Shown here: piece by piece, positions 36,891-61,645 of the stretch
Numbering within the stretch: the first letter of the stretch is position 1
How the letters are laid out: every line of letters starts with the position of its first letter
Assembly (NCBI GenBank): GCA_021108185.1
Contig: JAIORJ010000204.1
Span: 1 to 64,000 of the forward strand
DNA length: 64,000 nt
Direction: 5' to 3'
From: Methanococcoides sp.
GTDB lineage: Archaea > Halobacteriota > Methanosarcinia > Methanosarcinales > Methanosarcinaceae
The notes under the pieces: model-generated
Database searches by the model: none
What the model saw: only the letters and a program-made list of their open reading frames with translations
Told to the model about the DNA's origin: nothing
Program-made: the position numbers and the translations under genes

Positions 36891-38030
36891 TTACTTAACC
36901 GCTTTTGCAAGGTCCTTCAAAAATAGTTCTATCGTTTCATTTTTGATGTGAGGCATTATAACGATCCTAAGAGCACGGGGATCACGTGTAATAGATACAT
37001 GCCATCCATGTTCATCAAGCAATTTTTTTCTCACAAGATCAGCTTCAGGAACATCCAATGCAACAATATTCAAAACCGGATCGATGACAGTACCTATACC
37101 TAGTTTATCTGCACCTTCAACCAATTTTTTTGTGACAGACATACAGTCTGAAACAACTTTTTTGTAACCTTCTCTTCCAAGATGTTTCATGACAGCATAA
37201 GTTGAAGCCACTGCTGCACCACTTCGAGTTCCTGTTAGTGAATATTGTTTATTGACGCTTAAATAAGGTGTGTGTATCTCAAGACATTCAAAATATTCAG
37301 GTTCTTTGAACAAGAGACCACCTGAAGGGATAGTGCTAAGAGCCATTTTATGAGGATCTATTGTCATTGAAGTTACGCCTTCAAGTTTAAAATCATATGT
37401 ATAATCAAGATCCATAAAAGGAATTACAAAACCACCAAATGCTGCATCGACGTGCAAAAAAATATCTTTTTCAATAGCTATCTCTGATAATTCATTGATG
37501 GGATCAAGCTGGCCGAATTCTGTGGTACCTGCAATACCAACAAGACCAATTGTGTTTTTATCAATAAGTGAACTTACAGAATCCAGGTCAACTTTAAGCA
37601 AATTATCAAGAGAAGCTTTTCTAATCTCGATACCTGAAAGGTTTGCAACTTTATCGAATGAAAAATGAGCTGATTGAGGCATTATGATATTAGCCTTTGA
37701 AATATCACGCCGAAAATTTGTCATTGACCTTATTGCTTGTATATTAGATTCGGTTCCTCCGGTTGTTATATACCCAGCTTTTTCAGGAGAATTTTTGTGA
37801 TGCAACATTTCTCCAAACATACCAAGAACTTGTCTTTCAAGATCGAATGTACCAGGGAAAAGACCTGGATCTCCCATATTTGACTCTATGAATTGTGTAT
37901 GTGCTAAAACTGCAATTTCATGTGGATAAGTACACATTGAACTTAGAACACGCTCATAACTTGTATCAGCGGATTTGGCTTTTTTAAGAAATGCTAATAT
38001 TTCTTCTTTTGTTTTGCCGTTTTCTTCCAT
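36891..38030 (-). CDS. mfnA: L-tyrosine/L-aspartate decarboxylase MfnA
   Basis: The 379-residue PLP enzyme of decarboxylase group II has [13 protein letters not shown] and the cofactor lysine in [16 protein letters not shown]. The [13 protein letters not shown]-type loop is present as [15 protein letters not shown]. In methanogens MfnA makes tyramine for methanofuran; it can also decarboxylate aspartate to beta-alanine for CoA. Length and motifs are normal. It borders the replication origin and is transcribed away from it. Confidence 0.93.
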
Positions 38031-38315
38031 GAATTCTCAAGCTAATTACATACAACCTGTTTAAAATGATTGTGTTAAAATGTTCAAAAAATAGAGATGA
38101 ATATAGTTAATTCATAGATGAAGTTCTAAAATTTCGAATTTATTAATTCTTACGAATAACATTTTAATTTTATTAAAGTTATGATGAACAAAATAAAGAA
38201 CACAAAAAATATTAAATTAAATTATGGAACAAAATTTCAGGAAATAATTATGTGGCTTTATTTTAATGTTTAAATTTTTACAGAATTTTACTAAACTTAA
38301 ACTTGAGGAACTCTA

Positions 38316-38343
38316 GGGGTCACCCCATTGTTTCGACTGGAAC
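38316..38343 (-). promoter_or_regulatory. Origin recognition box 1
   Basis: The minus strand reads GTTCCAGTCGAAACAATGGG and continues GTGACCCC. It is the left-hand box, inverted relative to the others. Confidence 0.75.
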
Positions 38344-38468
38344 ATTTTAGTCAATTTTGGGAATTTGTTTCTAAACTTCTGGAAAGGTTTATTAACTATT
38401 AATTATATCTTTACAACACCTTCTTTTTTTAGTATTATAAAAAATATATCTCTTATTTTTTTTCTGCA

Positions 38469-38492
38469 CTCCAGTCGAAACCATAGGGTCAC
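38469..38492 (+). promoter_or_regulatory. Origin recognition box 2
   Basis: CTCCAGTCGAAACCATAGGG, then TCAC. It shares CCAGTCGAAAC and the G-string with box 1 in inverted orientation across the AT-rich stretch. Confidence 0.75.
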
Positions 38493-38505
38493 TGTTCTTT
38501 ATATA

Positions 38506-38529
38506 GTTTCCAAGGGAAACAAAGGGGTC
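38506..38529 (+). promoter_or_regulatory. Origin recognition box 3
   Basis: GTTTCCAAGGGAAACAAAGG, then GGTC. This is the closest to the general archaeal ORB form, TTTCC..GGAAAC followed by GGGGT. Confidence 0.75.
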
Positions 38530-38643
38530 TACTTCCAGAAGAAGTCTTTTTAACGTTTTTTGTTATAAAGCAGTTAATAAAAATTTTTTTAAAATAATTC
38601 GCTTGAACTTGTTCTACAAATTATATAGATAATTTTATAATAA

Positions 38644-38666
38644 ATTCCAGCCGAAACAAGGGGGTT
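38644..38666 (+). promoter_or_regulatory. Origin recognition box 4
   Basis: ATTCCAGCCGAAACAAGGGG, then GTT. A weaker fifth candidate on the minus strand (TTTCCAGTTGATGCAATG) lies at 38695-38715. Confidence 0.7.
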
Positions 38667-39070
38667 TTAACCATAAATCTTAATAAGGTCCACTTCCATT
38701 GCATCAACTGGAAATAATAAAGTTCACAAATTTTGGTTTTAAGATTTTAAAAAGTAATTTGTAATGCTCTGAAAAAATGGTATCTAAAGGTTTATTATGA
38801 TAATATTATGGGGTCATAAAAGAAAATCTTTGTTTGTAACTCTTTTTCTGCATTATTTATATTGTTTTTTGGTCTTAAGTTCATAAAAAAGTTTTAAGAC
38901 AAAAGTAATATCTTGAAAATTTAAATCGTTATTAATACATTAAAGGTATCTGAAAAAATTCCATTTAACATTCACTAAAAATTGGATTGTTTATTATGAT
39001 CTTGTCGTTAGAATAAATGTTGTTTCATAATTATTATTAATAAGTCTAAACTTATTGGAAGGTTCAAAAT

Positions 39071-40306
39071 ATGGAGAATAAATCATTAGGTGGATTATTT
39101 GAAGATTTATTGCAGAGTGAATCACTCTTTAAAAATAAGGAAGTTTTGAGACCTTCTTACACACCTGCCTCACTACCTCACAGAACCGAACAGGTAAACA
39201 ATCTTGCTACTATCCTTGTTTCTGCACTTAGGGGAGATACTCCATCAAATATTTTGATTTACGGGAAAACAGGTACAGGTAAAACAGCTGTTGCACGATA
39301 TGTTGGTATCGAACTAGAGAGGAAAAGTGAAGATCTGGATGTTCCATGTTCTGTACTCTATCTTAATTGTGAGGTTATCGATACACAATATAGGTTATTG
39401 GCAAATCTTGCTAAGCAGTTTGGTGAAGATATTCCAATGACAGGATGGCCTACCGATCAAGTATTTTCAAAATTCAAAGAAGCGATCGATTCTAAAAAGC
39501 AGGTTATAATGATCATTCTGGATGAGATCGATAAACTTGTGAAAAAGGGAGATGATGTTCTTTACAATCTTTCTCGTATAAACACCGATCTTAAAAATGC
39601 AAAGCTCAGTATGATAGGTATATCAAATGACCTCAAATTTACAGATTTTCTCGATCCAAGGGTAAAAAGTTCACTTGGAGAAGAAGAGATTATTTTCCCA
39701 CCATACGATGCTGAACAGATAAGCGATATCCTAAAACAAAGAGCAGCTATTGCATACAAGGATGATGTTCTTGACGAAATGGTCATTCCTTTGTGTTCTG
39801 CTTTTGCAGCACAGGAACATGGTGATGCAAGACGTGCACTGGATCTTCTAAGAGTCGCAGGTGAGCTTGCTGAACGTGATAACCAGGGTCATGTAGCGGA
39901 AGAGAATGTCAGAAGAGCTCAGGAAAAGATCGAGATCGATCGTGTCGTTGAAGTGGTCAGGACACTTCCGACACAATCAAAACTGTCCCTTTATAGTGTA
40001 ATGGTCCTGAGGGATAACGGACACAGAAATGTTACTACAGGAGAGGTCTACAACGTTTACCGTCAGTTATGTTTAAGTGTAGATATGGATATCCTGACAC
40101 AAAGAAGGGTCACTGATCTTATATCTGAACTGGATATGCTTGGTATTCTCAATGCAGTCGTAGTCAGTAAAGGACGTTATGGAAGGACAAAGGAAATAGT
40201 ATTGAGTGTTCCTATCGAAAGTACCAGGCGTGTTCTTCTGGAAGATTACAGGTTAGGAATGCTTGCAGACTTCAAACCAGTGATCACAGCACAGATGCAT
40301 CTGTGA
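39071..40306 (+). CDS. cdc6: Orc1/Cdc6 replication initiator
   Basis: This 411-residue AAA+ protein has Walker A IYGKTGTGKTAVARYV, Walker B VIMIILDEIDKL, sensor 1 MIGISNDLKF, sensor 2 GDARRALDLLRVAGELA and a C-terminal winged helix (about 310-411) that binds origin boxes. It initiates replication by binding the boxes immediately upstream and recruiting MCM. The ribosome site is GGAAGG. The adjacent boxes suggest it also controls its own promoter. Confidence 0.97.
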   Translation: MENKSLGGLFEDLLQSESLFKNKEVLRPSYTPASLPHRTEQVNNLATILVSALRGDTPSNILIYGKTGTGKTAVARYVGIELERKSEDLDVPCSVLYLNCEVIDTQYRLLANLAKQFGEDIPMTGWPTDQVFSKFKEAIDSKKQVIMIILDEIDKLVKKGDDVLYNLSRINTDLKNAKLSMIGISNDLKFTDFLDPRVKSSLGEEEIIFPPYDAEQISDILKQRAAIAYKDDVLDEMVIPLCSAFAAQEHGDARRALDLLRVAGELAERDNQGHVAEENVRRAQEKIEIDRVVEVVRTLPTQSKLSLYSVMVLRDNGHRNVTTGEVYNVYRQLCLSVDMDILTQRRVTDLISELDMLGILNAVVVSKGRYGRTKEIVLSVPIESTRRVLLEDYRLGMLADFKPVITAQMHL

Positions 40307-40356: not shown

Positions 40357-40911
40357 TTAGGATATGAGCAGTCTCAGATGACCCAGATATGGTATTCTGA
40401 ACTGTGCTGTTCCTATTATCCATTCTTCTTTAATAGGTTCATTATAGCTTATCTGGCCTTGCTGATCAAAATAGATGTTCGTTCTTATATTGTCACCTTT
40501 TGTGATATAACCACTGTGAGGAGCAGCAGGACCGTTAATCCACATAGGTTCTCCCTCTTCTACATAGTACATAGCCCGATGTATGATAGGTGTAACTCCT
40601 TCCTGACCATAAGGGCGGTATAGAATAACATCACCCTGCATTTTAAATGAAATATGTTCTGTAGAAGTATCCTGATTGGTTATTATCTGTGTCCGATCAA
40701 TACTTTTTATGAAAATAATGTCACCTATCTGCATATGTGGTTCCATGCTGCCGGATTCAACCGCAACCATAGGTGTCCACATTCCAAAAACGATCTGTGA
40801 GATCACTGCAAAAGCCAGTACAGCCAGAAGTACGGATGCAAGATCTCTTGTAATAGAGATCCAGAAATTCTCACTTGTTCTAAATGTGTGAAATGATTCT
40901 TGTAAGGTCAT
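40357..40911 (-). CDS. Signal peptidase I (archaeal/ER type)
   Basis: A 184-residue protein with one N-terminal membrane helix (DLASVLLAVLAFAVISQIVF) and the catalytic serine in VAVESGSMEPHM. Box with IGDIIFIKS, then IIHRAMYYVEEGE with the histidine that replaces the bacterial lysine in SEC11-type enzymes, and the KGDNIRTN box. It cleaves secretory signal peptides outside the membrane. It is convergent with orc1/cdc6. Confidence 0.92.
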   Translation of the reverse strand: MTLQESFHTFRTSENFWISITRDLASVLLAVLAFAVISQIVFGMWTPMVAVESGSMEPHMQIGDIIFIKSIDRTQIITNQDTSTEHISFKMQGDVILYRPYGQEGVTPIIHRAMYYVEEGEPMWINGPAAPHSGYITKGDNIRTNIYFDQQGQISYNEPIKEEWIIGTAQFRIPYLGHLRLLIS

Positions 40912-41112: not shown

Positions 41113-42738
41113 ATGAAAGAGATCAAGGCGCAGGAAGTTTTTTTGGAAGCGGGTTATCAGATAAGCCCTAAAGCTGTGGAAATGATCACCTCACATAGTG
41201 CACCAAATGACCTTATTTCCTATATACTCGAAAATGTGGATGAATCCCTTTTTGTCATTGAAGCTGAACATATTGATATTGAGAGTTTTGAAAAAGAATA
41301 TCCGGACCTTCCAAAGGAATGTCTTGATGAGGTACCGTGTTCCAATGATACTTCAACATCTCAAGTATCCTCAGTTCCTTCGACCCGATCTTCTGCACGG
41401 TCTTCAATATCCTCAACACCTTCTCCAACATCATCTTCAGCCACTTTACGAGATGAAAGATGTTTTAGTGACTCCAACGAGCAGGTGAACAATATCAATA
41501 TCATGTCTGACATTACAGATATGTCGACCTGTGTTGGTGAGTACATGGAATTTGTCCAGTATTTCAGGAACCGTTACACTAAACTGAGTAATATCATACG
41601 TGGAAGGGTCACCGCCCGACCTATTGAAAGCCTTAACAAGAACCGGAAACAAAGTAGCGGCATAAAGCGTGGAGGCGGTGGGGATTATAATGAGGCATCT
41701 ATCATAGGGATGGTGTCTGAGATAAGGACCACTGCCAATGGTCACAAGATGCTACAATTGGAAGACCCCACAGGTTCATTTCCGGTGCTGGTGCATCAGG
41801 CGGAAAAGGACCTGTTCGAGGAAGCGAGCAAACTCGTTCTCGATGAGGTCATCGGTATAACCGGCTCAATGACCAATGATGGTAGTCTTCTGATCGCGAA
41901 AAAGCTGGTATTTCCAGACCTTCCCAATATCCCTAACAGGAGAGAAGGTACCTGGGGCAAAGCGATCTTCACATCAGATATCCATGTAGGTAGCTCTACT
42001 TTTCTTGAGGAAGAGTGGTGCGGTTTTCTTGATTTCCTTAATGGCAGGACCGATAATGAGCAGCTGAAAAAAATGTCTGAGGAAATACGTTTTCTTGTGG
42101 TTGCAGGTGATCTTGTTGATGGTATTGGCATATTCCCGGGACAGGAACATGAGCTTGATATACTTGATGTTTATGACCAGTATAGAAAAGCTGCTGAGTA
42201 TTTCGATCAGGTACCTGAACATATAAAGATTATCATTTCTCCCGGTAACCACGATGCGGTCAGGCAGGCAGAACCCCAGCCACGTTTTCCGGAGCGTATC
42301 ACTTCCCTTTTTTCTGACAGGATAACGTTTGTGGGAAATCCTGCACTTGTCGACCTTGATGGTGTCAAGGTCCTGATGTATCATGGACGTTCCATAGATG
42401 ATCTGGTAGCATCTGTTCCGGGAGTTTCCTATCAGGAACCTGAAAAAGCTATGGCGGAAATGGTAAAAAGAAGACATCTTTCCCCAATATATGGGAGCAG
42501 GGTTTCCATTGCACCGGAAAAACAGGACCATTTCGTCATTGACCCGGTACCCGATATACTGCATTGTGGTCATGTACATACTATTGGTGTTGGCAATTAC
42601 AAGAGTGTCCTTCTTATAAATTCAGGCACATGGCAGTCTCAAACAGAGTTCCAGAAAAGGGTTAATTTAATGCCTACTCCTGCAAAGGTTCCGGTGGTGG
42701 ACCTATCTACTCTCAGGACAACCCTTCTTCAGTTCTAA
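41113..42738 (+). CDS. DNA polymerase D small subunit DP1 (exonuclease)
   Basis: The 541 residues show an N-terminal helical domain (about 1-75), a Ser/Thr-rich linker (about 80-120), an OB fold (VSEIRTTANGHKMLQLEDPTG), and a calcineurin-like phosphoesterase core with FTSDIHVGSST, VAGDLVDGIG, SPGNHDAV, MYHGRSIDD and HCGHVHTIG. It is the proofreading 3'-5' exonuclease and partner of DP2, which is not in the window. Length is normal for methanogens. Confidence 0.95.
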   Translation: MKEIKAQEVFLEAGYQISPKAVEMITSHSAPNDLISYILENVDESLFVIEAEHIDIESFEKEYPDLPKECLDEVPCSNDTSTSQVSSVPSTRSSARSSISSTPSPTSSSATLRDERCFSDSNEQVNNINIMSDITDMSTCVGEYMEFVQYFRNRYTKLSNIIRGRVTARPIESLNKNRKQSSGIKRGGGGDYNEASIIGMVSEIRTTANGHKMLQLEDPTGSFPVLVHQAEKDLFEEASKLVLDEVIGITGSMTNDGSLLIAKKLVFPDLPNIPNRREGTWGKAIFTSDIHVGSSTFLEEEWCGFLDFLNGRTDNEQLKKMSEEIRFLVVAGDLVDGIGIFPGQEHELDILDVYDQYRKAAEYFDQVPEHIKIIISPGNHDAVRQAEPQPRFPERITSLFSDRITFVGNPALVDLDGVKVLMYHGRSIDDLVASVPGVSYQEPEKAMAEMVKRRHLSPIYGSRVSIAPEKQDHFVIDPVPDILHCGHVHTIGVGNYKSVLLINSGTWQSQTEFQKRVNLMPTPAKVPVVDLSTLRTTLLQF

Positions 42739-42817: not shown

Positions 42818-43777
42818 ATGCATCAAATGTCTTTAAAAGATAAGGAAGATCTGATGGTCCTTCCTGAGATAACTGATTTTGAAAGTTTGCTAAAAAAGCA
42901 AAAGTACAGTCTTGCAGGCACTCATTCAGCTGTTAAGACATGTCTTTGGCTTAGCCGTTCAATAAAAGATCAAGGTGACTGTTATAAGTCAAAGTTCTAT
43001 GGCATAACCTCTCATTGTTGTTTACAAATGACACCCACACTGAGATGCAATCAGCGTTGTTTACATTGCTGGAGGCCTACTGAGGTCGAAGTATCTCTTC
43101 CAAATAATTGGGATTCTCCAGTGGAAATAGTGGGGTCATCAATAAAGGCCCAGCGAAAATTGATCACAGGATTTGGACATTCAGCACCAAGAGAGCGCTG
43201 GATAGAAGCCAATGAACCAAAACATGTCGCTATCTCTCTTTCAGGTGAACCTACATTGTATCCGTATCTTCCTGAACTTGTAGAAGAGTATGAAAGCCAG
43301 GGATTCAGTACATTTGTTGTAAGTAATGGTACTGTTCCTGAAATGATGGAAAGGATAGAACCTTCACAGCTTTACATGAGCCTGGATGCGCCTGACAAAG
43401 AGACGTATGAAAAGGTTTGTTTACCGAAATCTCCCGCACTGTGGGATAAGATCAACAGGTCTCTTGAGATCCTTGGAACAAAAAGCAACAGGAAGGCTAT
43501 TCGCATAACACTTGTCAAAGGTGTGAATATGTTTGACGCGGCAGGTTATGCCCGACTTATTGAAAAGGCAGACCCGGATTACATTGAGGTCAAGGCGTAT
43601 ATGCATCTGGGCTATTCTAGAGGCCGTCTTCCACGTGAAGCCATGCCTGCACACGATGAGGTTCTGGAATTTGCAAAAGAGATCGCTGGTCACATTGGAT
43701 ACAGTGTTGCAGATGATGTGGAAGTTAGCCGTATAGTTCTGCTCTCGAAAGACGGAAAAGTTTCAGATCTTGAGTAA
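42818..43777 (+). CDS. taw1: 4-demethylwyosine synthase (TYW1/Taw1), radical SAM
   Basis: A 319-residue radical SAM enzyme with MTPTLRCNQRCLHCWRP (CxxxCxxCW cluster motif), EPKHVAISLSGEPTLYPYL and VSNGTVPEMM. It builds the tricyclic base of wyosine at G37 of tRNA-Phe using pyruvate. The N-terminal extra cysteines (CLWLSRSIK, ITSHCCLQM) may hold a second cluster, as in known Taw1. AAAAGGAAG precedes the ATG closely; the ATG at the fourth codon is also possible. Confidence 0.95.
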   Translation: MHQMSLKDKEDLMVLPEITDFESLLKKQKYSLAGTHSAVKTCLWLSRSIKDQGDCYKSKFYGITSHCCLQMTPTLRCNQRCLHCWRPTEVEVSLPNNWDSPVEIVGSSIKAQRKLITGFGHSAPRERWIEANEPKHVAISLSGEPTLYPYLPELVEEYESQGFSTFVVSNGTVPEMMERIEPSQLYMSLDAPDKETYEKVCLPKSPALWDKINRSLEILGTKSNRKAIRITLVKGVNMFDAAGYARLIEKADPDYIEVKAYMHLGYSRGRLPREAMPAHDEVLEFAKEIAGHIGYSVADDVEVSRIVLLSKDGKVSDLE

Positions 43778-60649: not shown

Positions 60650-61645
60650 TTATTGAATTGAAATTTCCACTATACCTTTTCTTTTTTCGGTTTTGAACTT
60701 TATATCAAGGAATTTTTCTGTGACCCAGATGTTGGTCCTTGTATGGGGTGATATTTCTTTTACAGTAAAAGAACCACCTTCAGCAAGTCCGAGATAGGGG
60801 ATAAGCTGGTCTGCAAGATGAATGTCAACGGAAGAAGGGGTTAAAAGTTCATCCAGAAGGGATGTAGCAGCATCACCGCCTACCTTTTCTGCTGTTATTC
60901 CTCTTTTACCAGGCACAAAAGAGCCTTTCATTCCACAATATAAGGTTATTCCACTACCTGTGGATTGAAAGTCAGTACGGCATGTTTCTATTGAACATTC
61001 ATAGCCGGCATCTTCAAGAACAGCCTTTGCTTTGTCGGCCTGCCTCTGTGCAACATGGTCAGGCAGATTGGAGCAATGCGATATTCCACGAATGATCCCT
61101 CTTTCTTCTGAAAGCTCATGAGGCACTAAATGTGAAGGCTCGATCATTGCCTTAGCACTACCTCCACCACGCGGGTAGTATCCTCTTTTTAAAATATCGA
61201 TGTTGCATCGGTAGCCCATTTTCGAGAGGGCATTGAGTGTGACATTATTAAGATAATCGATACTTGGTGACCATGAAACATCAGTTCCCCCTTTTATGTC
61301 AAGTTTGACCTTAGTGTCAGAATAAGCAGCAATGGGCATTATGCATTGTAATAGTAAAGCTATACTTCCCGCAGTGCCGATATCAATGGTATAGTTACCC
61401 CCCCTTATTTCCTGTGGAAAGAATGCAATATCCGTAGAGCCGATCTTAACTCCTTCTACTTTTGCATCACACAATAAGGCCGCTGTTCCTATTGCTTTTA
61501 CATGTTGGGCTGAGAGTCCGGGGTTTGGCCGGTCTTTACGTATATTCTTTATGAATGTTGCTTTTCCCGTAACAGCAGAAAGTGCTATGGCATTTCTGAC
61601 TATCTGTCCGCCACCTTCTCCATAGGAACCATCGATATCGATCAT
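60650..61645 (-). CDS. rtcA: RNA 3'-terminal phosphate cyclase
   Basis: A 331-residue protein with DGSYGEGGGQIVRNAIALS (N-terminal GEGGGQ), RPNPGLSAQHV and RGYYPRGGGSAKAM. It converts RNA 3'-phosphate to a 2',3'-cyclic phosphate using ATP. The catalytic histidine would be in LADQLIPYLGLAEG...HTRTNIW. It shares four bases with the flavoprotein gene upstream (ATGA at 61642-61645), so it is translationally coupled to it, and it ends next to kptA. Confidence 0.95.
   Translation of the reverse strand: MIDIDGSYGEGGGQIVRNAIALSAVTGKATFIKNIRKDRPNPGLSAQHVKAIGTAALLCDAKVEGVKIGSTDIAFFPQEIRGGNYTIDIGTAGSIALLLQCIMPIAAYSDTKVKLDIKGGTDVSWSPSIDYLNNVTLNALSKMGYRCNIDILKRGYYPRGGGSAKAMIEPSHLVPHELSEERGIIRGISHCSNLPDHVAQRQADKAKAVLEDAGYECSIETCRTDFQSTGSGITLYCGMKGSFVPGKRGITAEKVGGDAATSLLDELLTPSSVDIHLADQLIPYLGLAEGGSFTVKEISPHTRTNIWVTEKFLDIKFKTEKRKGIVEISIQ

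Follow-up and report, generated by a model that had tools for sequence, protein, structure and literature searches.

Does the 1,040-bp gap between mfnA and orc1/cdc6 hold the replication origin of the chromosome on which it lies? The gap (75.7% AT) is part of the window, that is, the whole 64,000-nucleotide stretch of DNA analysed, which belongs to contig C7 of an assembly of 2.32 Mb in 230 contigs. It is bounded by mfnA (36891-38030, minus strand) on one side and by orc1/cdc6 (39071-40306, plus strand) on the other. The initial annotation had proposed a chromosomal replication origin here, and this proposal is supported by the layout of the initiator boxes, the neighbouring genes, conservation among relatives and nucleotide skew. 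We put at about 0.95 the probability that the locus is the chromosomal oriC of a Methanococcoides-type archaeon, with Orc1 on four origin recognition boxes (ORBs A to D), a duplex unwinding element (DUE) between A and B, and bidirectional forks.

The origin is of the well-known Orc1/Cdc6-ORB kind (oriC1 type); what the locus adds to this kind is a dyad in the DUE and a conserved ORB embedded in a coding sequence. Genetic tools exist for some Methanosarcinaceae, and the locus provides a precise comparative origin target for this family. According to a 2014 review, Methanothermobacter thermautotrophicus was the only methanogen with an experimentally shown origin (PMC3984812).

Origin boxes upstream of orc1

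The gene that directly follows the boxes, as the initial annotation had correctly placed it, encodes an initiator of the Orc1-1 type (411 aa), recognized as an ORC1-type DNA replication protein (NCBIfam NF001625, 712 bits versus a cutoff of 501) and 99-100% identical to its counterparts in Methanococcoides sp. SMBSF09, M. seepicolus and M. alaskense, which places the source among the Methanococcoides-type methanogens of the Methanosarcinaceae. The nearest solved structures are those of Sulfolobus Cdc6-1 (2qby_A) and Aeropyrum 2v1u (2v1u_A), and the wing and winged-helix segment (RRV...SELDM...GRYG) is nearly identical to that of the ORB-binding Sulfolobus Orc1-1 and Aeropyrum Orc1.

Searching the 64 kb with the pattern TTCCAGTCGAAACAANGGGGT and up to 3 mismatches yielded exactly 4 matches, compared with 0 in 100 dinucleotide shuffles, bearing out the earlier count of four boxes, one inverted relative to the other three. 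Box A, TTCCAGTCGAAACAATGGGGT, is the inverted one (38322-38342, minus strand, 32.0 bits), with its G-string directed away from the AT-rich zone, followed on the plus strand by boxes B (38469-38489, 28.5 bits), C, CCAAGGGAAAC (38508-38528, 30.0 bits; 39 bp start-to-start from B), and D (38645-38665, 27.1 bits). The bit scores come from a weight matrix trained on 64 boxes from other genera only, with which shuffled windows seldom reach 8 bits. When a looser pattern was applied to the whole assembly, the only perfect matches were three of these same boxes. The cluster is the only dense one found in the source assembly, and the same holds for the complete relative G005, which we take to be M. burtonii. 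The loose core CCAGYCGAAAC with 2 mismatches gave matches no commoner than expected by chance; the core by itself is therefore uninformative.

The boxes match the general archaeal motif TCCA...GAAA...GGGG. The form described at first reading, CCAG-CGAAAC followed by a G-string, holds in general, but not for box C, and its description as a lineage variant of the known ORB is only partly accurate. Most of the deviating letters occupy the degenerate central positions of the motif, which vary even within Methanococcoides (TC, TT, CC, GG, AA), and the box is not a form specific to this lineage. The same is seen against the motif of the predicted Methanomicrobia oriCs from DoriC / Ori-Finder 2, TCCA[GC]T[GT]GAAA[CT][AG]A[AT]GGGGT (PMC4164010), which the boxes resemble but from which they differ mainly at the degenerate centre and the spacer (TC, CC, GG). 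That published motif recovers boxes A to D with 1-3 mismatches, along with two extra sites, at 43117 and 61399 (PMC4164010; see below).

The layout, consisting of inverted A, the AT-rich stretch, B and C 39 bp apart, and then D, is conserved in all 11 Methanococcoides genomes, with 145-150 bp from A to B, C located 39 bp past B, and D ~137 bp further; box D is degenerate in some of the species. Within the genus, mean column agreement reaches 0.96-0.97 in boxes A and B, 0.85 in the DUE and 0.90 in the block after D, compared with 0.55-0.58 outside these elements. The 39-bp spacing between B and C recurs across several genera: of 51 sequences with a B/C pair, 40 show it; the remaining sequences, mainly from distant Methanoperedens-type genomes, show spacings of 32-40 bp, and in Methanosarcina and some distant lineages the pair is lost or rearranged. 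The fixed B-C pair is probably functional. The conserved block after D (38678-38713) ends in a dyad, TTCCATTGCATCAACTGGAA (38694-38713), which consists of ORB-like halves without the G-string and is itself largely conserved across the genus; this fifth element had been overlooked in the initial annotation.

The AT-rich zone between the inverted boxes

The putative DUE, between the inverted boxes A and B (38343-38468), has an AT content of 0.786, compared with 0.802 in the C-D spacer and 0.581 in the window, and few 100-bp stretches in the 64 kb have a less stable duplex than these two spacers. The initial claim that the boxes flank an AT-rich stretch stands for 38343-38468, where two inverted ORBs, A on the minus strand and B on the plus strand, surround a candidate unwinding region, but not for the interval as a whole. 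The DUE is better conserved than its flanks.

Within the DUE, 7 bp from box B, lies an AT-rich inverted repeat, AAAAAATA-(7)-TATTTTTT (38439-38461), preceded by a T-tract (38424-38430). In Methanosarcinaceae, an A-tract and a T-tract linked by short arms are found directly 5' of box B, for instance AAAAATATG-TATTT-CATATTTTT in Methanohalophilus and AAAAAAACATT-AATA-AATGTTTTTT in genome G021, whereas Methanoperedens-type genomes tend toward a repeated GGTTTTT-type motif instead. Across 39 sequences reduced for similarity, hairpin energies are lower than those of dinucleotide shuffles (mean z -2.0, summed z -12.5). Genera vary in the four arm letters that lie inside the tracts, yet the arms remain complementary, with at least 5 distinct complementary arm sets. 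This covariation was scored on segments anchored on the A- and T-tracts, as a MAFFT alignment placed the hairpin segments out of register. Arm pairing was observed in 67 of 80 cells, compared with 46 obtained by shuffling; for the 14 unique arm pairs, 45 of 56 cells were paired, compared with 30 in shuffles (permutation p ~1e-5), with relatedness among the sequences partly remaining in this test.

The inverted repeat is probably functional: it may serve as the site of a dimeric protein, be extruded as a hairpin, or act as a bidirectional transcription insulator. That the T-tracts terminate transcription of an adjacent gene was rejected as the main explanation, mfnA and orc1 both diverging from the gap. 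The conserved T-tracts are consistent with what is described for Aeropyrum, whose Orc1 additionally binds single-stranded T-rich DNA of the DUE (PMC8287685).

A close parallel to this arrangement is oriC1 of Haloarcula hispanica, where an inverted repeat likewise lies between two inverted ORBs; that repeat is G-rich and acts as an enhancer in a comparable place (PMC3936714), whereas the repeat described here is AT-rich, with A-tract/T-tract arms. Sulfolobus islandicus oriC1 (ORB3-DUE-ORB2 plus ucm; PMC12141716) also has inverted Orc1-1 boxes around a DUE, and this DUE contains another conserved motif. The element found here differs from that motif in being an inverted repeat with lineage-specific letters, and Sulfolobus, in addition, has three origins. 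The covarying repeat points to a further origin factor or DNA structure, parallel to the UBP/ucm pair recently found in Sulfolobus.

In Sulfolobus, a single Orc1 binds each ORB with a defined polarity, inverted ORBs surround the DUE, MCM is recruited by Orc1-ATP, and the forks are bidirectional (PMC12141716). By analogy with this and with the work on Aeropyrum and haloarchaea, on which our model of Orc1 binding, MCM loading, melting and firing is based, Orc1 made from the adjacent gene would bind boxes A to D as oriented monomers, with A and B bracketing the DUE and both of their G-strings pointing outward. Orc1-ATP would then recruit MCM, the A/T-tract repeat beside box B would aid duplex opening, and two forks would depart in opposite directions.

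Skew, gene context and other readings of the locus

Because the source assembly is fragmented, skew was computed on the nearest complete chromosome, that of G005 (2,575,032 bp), whose orc1 is 98% identical. The initial annotation had named a skew minimum elsewhere among the findings that would overturn the origin proposal, and the proposal withstands this test. In G005, the minimum of raw cumulative GC skew is at 1,821,305, inside the box cluster (1,821,028-1,821,371) and between boxes C and D, so that an extreme of a nucleotide disparity curve coincides with the boxes in the closest complete relative. When the 300-kb left/right skew contrast is computed at random positions, 0.1% of them give a larger value than this minimum. 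The extremes of the other disparities are ~1 kb (MK), 21 kb (AT) and 54 kb (RY) away from the cluster. The sequence records of several complete relatives are numbered from this orc1.

Downstream of orc1, the window encodes signal peptidase I (40357-40911, minus strand) and the small subunit of DNA polymerase D, DP1 (41113-42738, plus strand). The order of orc1, signal peptidase and DNA polymerase subunit is that of haloarchaeal oriC1 (PMC4010727), with which the locus is syntenic. Upstream of its orc1, haloarchaeal oriC1, as described in Haloarcula hispanica, likewise has an AT-rich stretch enclosed by inverted ORBs that carry G-strings (PMC4010727, PMC3936714); the locus studied here differs in having three boxes after the DUE, two of them at the fixed 39-bp spacing.

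That the origin is real yet dispensable, with most initiation being recombination-dependent as in Thermococcus kodakarensis, is an unlikely reading. The conserved origin and cdc6 of that archaeon can indeed be dispensable (PMC5663688), and the skew curves of G005 are noisy beyond ~900 kb from the origin. However, the local skew switch is clear and all of the elements are strongly conserved, which implies long-term use of the locus as a start site.

Every box lies upstream of orc1, and a conserved TATA-like element, CTTTATATA (38497-38505), is located inside the fixed 39-bp B-C interval. This element could be a putative orc1 promoter overlapped by box C, such that C-bound Orc1 could block it (autoregulation), or else a part of the origin. 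The boxes might then be mainly operators through which Orc1 regulates its own promoter, with replication beginning elsewhere. Against this, box A is ~750 bp upstream of orc1, past the conserved DUE; the skew minimum of G005 falls within the box cluster, and no other such cluster was found on that chromosome; and in S. islandicus, ORB mutation kills the origin while the level of Orc1-1 is unchanged (PMC12141716). We consider it very improbable that the boxes serve mainly as operators.

The source genome encodes two more Orc1/Cdc6 homologues, with 31-34% identity, as well as a fragment (G000:C44:5400-6548, G000:C10:13471-14523 and G000:C67:5449-5670). In the surroundings scanned, no ORB-like site scored at least 8 bits near these genes and the fragment, which therefore mark no second ORB-type origin. 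Orc1 homologues often travel on mobile elements and one of the extra copies is on a small contig, which might suggest that the locus served an integrated plasmid or virus and not the host chromosome as its origin, but core genes flank the locus on both sides, the locus is common to every close relative examined, the skew minimum falls on it, and a plasmid search with the origin sequence gave no match, leaving this reading a negligible probability.

The DP1 gene is intact in the window, and its orthologue in G005 (C1:1823798-1825420) contains one in-frame TAG, at codon 366, in place of CAG. Because TAG is readable as pyrrolysine in Methanosarcinaceae, this codon may be read through rather than mark a broken gene. 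DP1 was reported in 2008 to be absent from M. burtonii (PMC2643942).

Initiator boxes outside the origin

The top-scoring site of the window (43115-43137, plus strand, 32.3 bits) is ~4 kb from the origin, within the coding sequence of the tRNA-wybutosine gene taw1 (42818-43777), which encodes radical SAM and wyosine-formation domains, and it is present in all 11 Methanococcoides genomes. The corresponding site was located in 47 genomes of the family with a pattern that constrains mostly amino acids, not synonymous sites. Among these genomes, the codons CCA and GAA are used in 47 and TCT in 46, and the whole box, including TGGGGTC, is found in 45. One more genus beyond this set also has the box, and its synonymous sites are frozen in nine genera. 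For comparison, GGG makes up 13% of Gly codons in G005, CCA 30% of Pro codons and TCT 20% of Ser codons. The third base of the Ile codon, which corresponds to a degenerate ORB position, is free to vary, and in a control motif ~20 codons upstream in taw1, nearly every synonymous site is variable (same 27 genomes). Between the window and one different genus, synonymous change affects 1 of 8 box codons (Ser, at the 3' edge), compared with 40 of 73 elsewhere. Such conservation of synonymous sites is a sign that the DNA itself is under selection.

The distance between taw1 and orc1 is usually 3-6 kb and amounts to 42-60 kb in two genera; the box, therefore, need not adjoin the origin. No copy was found in the taw1 gene of Methanosarcina; matches to the codon pattern in this genus (TGGGATAAG...) are located elsewhere and were left out of the counts. 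A similar case of initiator boxes in a protein gene near oriC is the ORB and mini-ORBs that Thermococcales carry within their DP1 gene (cited in PMC2643942); the host gene here is taw1, and the conserved synonymous sites point to selection on DNA.

A second ORB-like site outside the gap (61398-61420, minus strand, 26.4 bits) is in the gene for RNA 3'-terminal phosphate cyclase and is matched in 7 of the 11 Methanococcoides genomes. In 70 genomes of the family, the exact ORB pattern occurs several times per genome, compared with 0-2 occurrences of a reversed control and thus well beyond chance, and Methanococcoides genomes carry 2-4 copies outside the origin, including an intergenic one ~135-155 kb upstream of it in several species. 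Initiator boxes conserved as DNA thus exist outside the origin, represented by the taw1 ORB and the scattered ORBs.

In Methanococcoides, these are single boxes only, no dense box cluster having been found outside the origin, and hence they were not classified as a titration region of the oriC2D or datA type. H. hispanica oriC2D, which titrates Cdc6E (PMC3936714), likewise has ORBs downstream of an initiator gene and outside the origin, but these form an intergenic cluster of 11, whereas the ORBs here are scattered singly, one of them in a coding sequence. By analogy with H. hispanica oriC2 (PMC3936714), the scattered ORBs may tune the supply of Orc1, and we regard them, together with the taw1 box and the DUE repeat, as candidate initiator-control sites. 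Tentatively, and with more doubt than confidence, we suggest that Methanosarcinaceae might use two new devices: a DUE dyad in which symmetry and not sequence is preserved, and which would be read by a dimeric factor or extruded as a hairpin, and single Orc1 boxes conserved at sites other than the origin, among them the one in taw1, which would adjust the supply of initiator or connect the origin region with genes related to translation. Should Orc1 bind the taw1 box and the scattered ORBs, they would constitute an archaeal datA-like control layer, including a site kept inside a protein gene.

Two orthologous single intergenic ORBs, G000:C3:2649-2667 and G005:C1:1356745-1356763, are each followed ~150 bp further downstream by a histidine-kinase-like gene; Orc1 might also act there as a transcription regulator. 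A related genus with larger genomes has a conserved cluster of three ORBs on the same strand, with spacings of ~250 and 408 bp (G020:C1:3831210-3831886, G057:C23:7160-7836 and G063:C136:120-996). The G020 copy, in a complete genome, is ~380 kb from orc1, and the cluster is a possible second origin or titration cluster.
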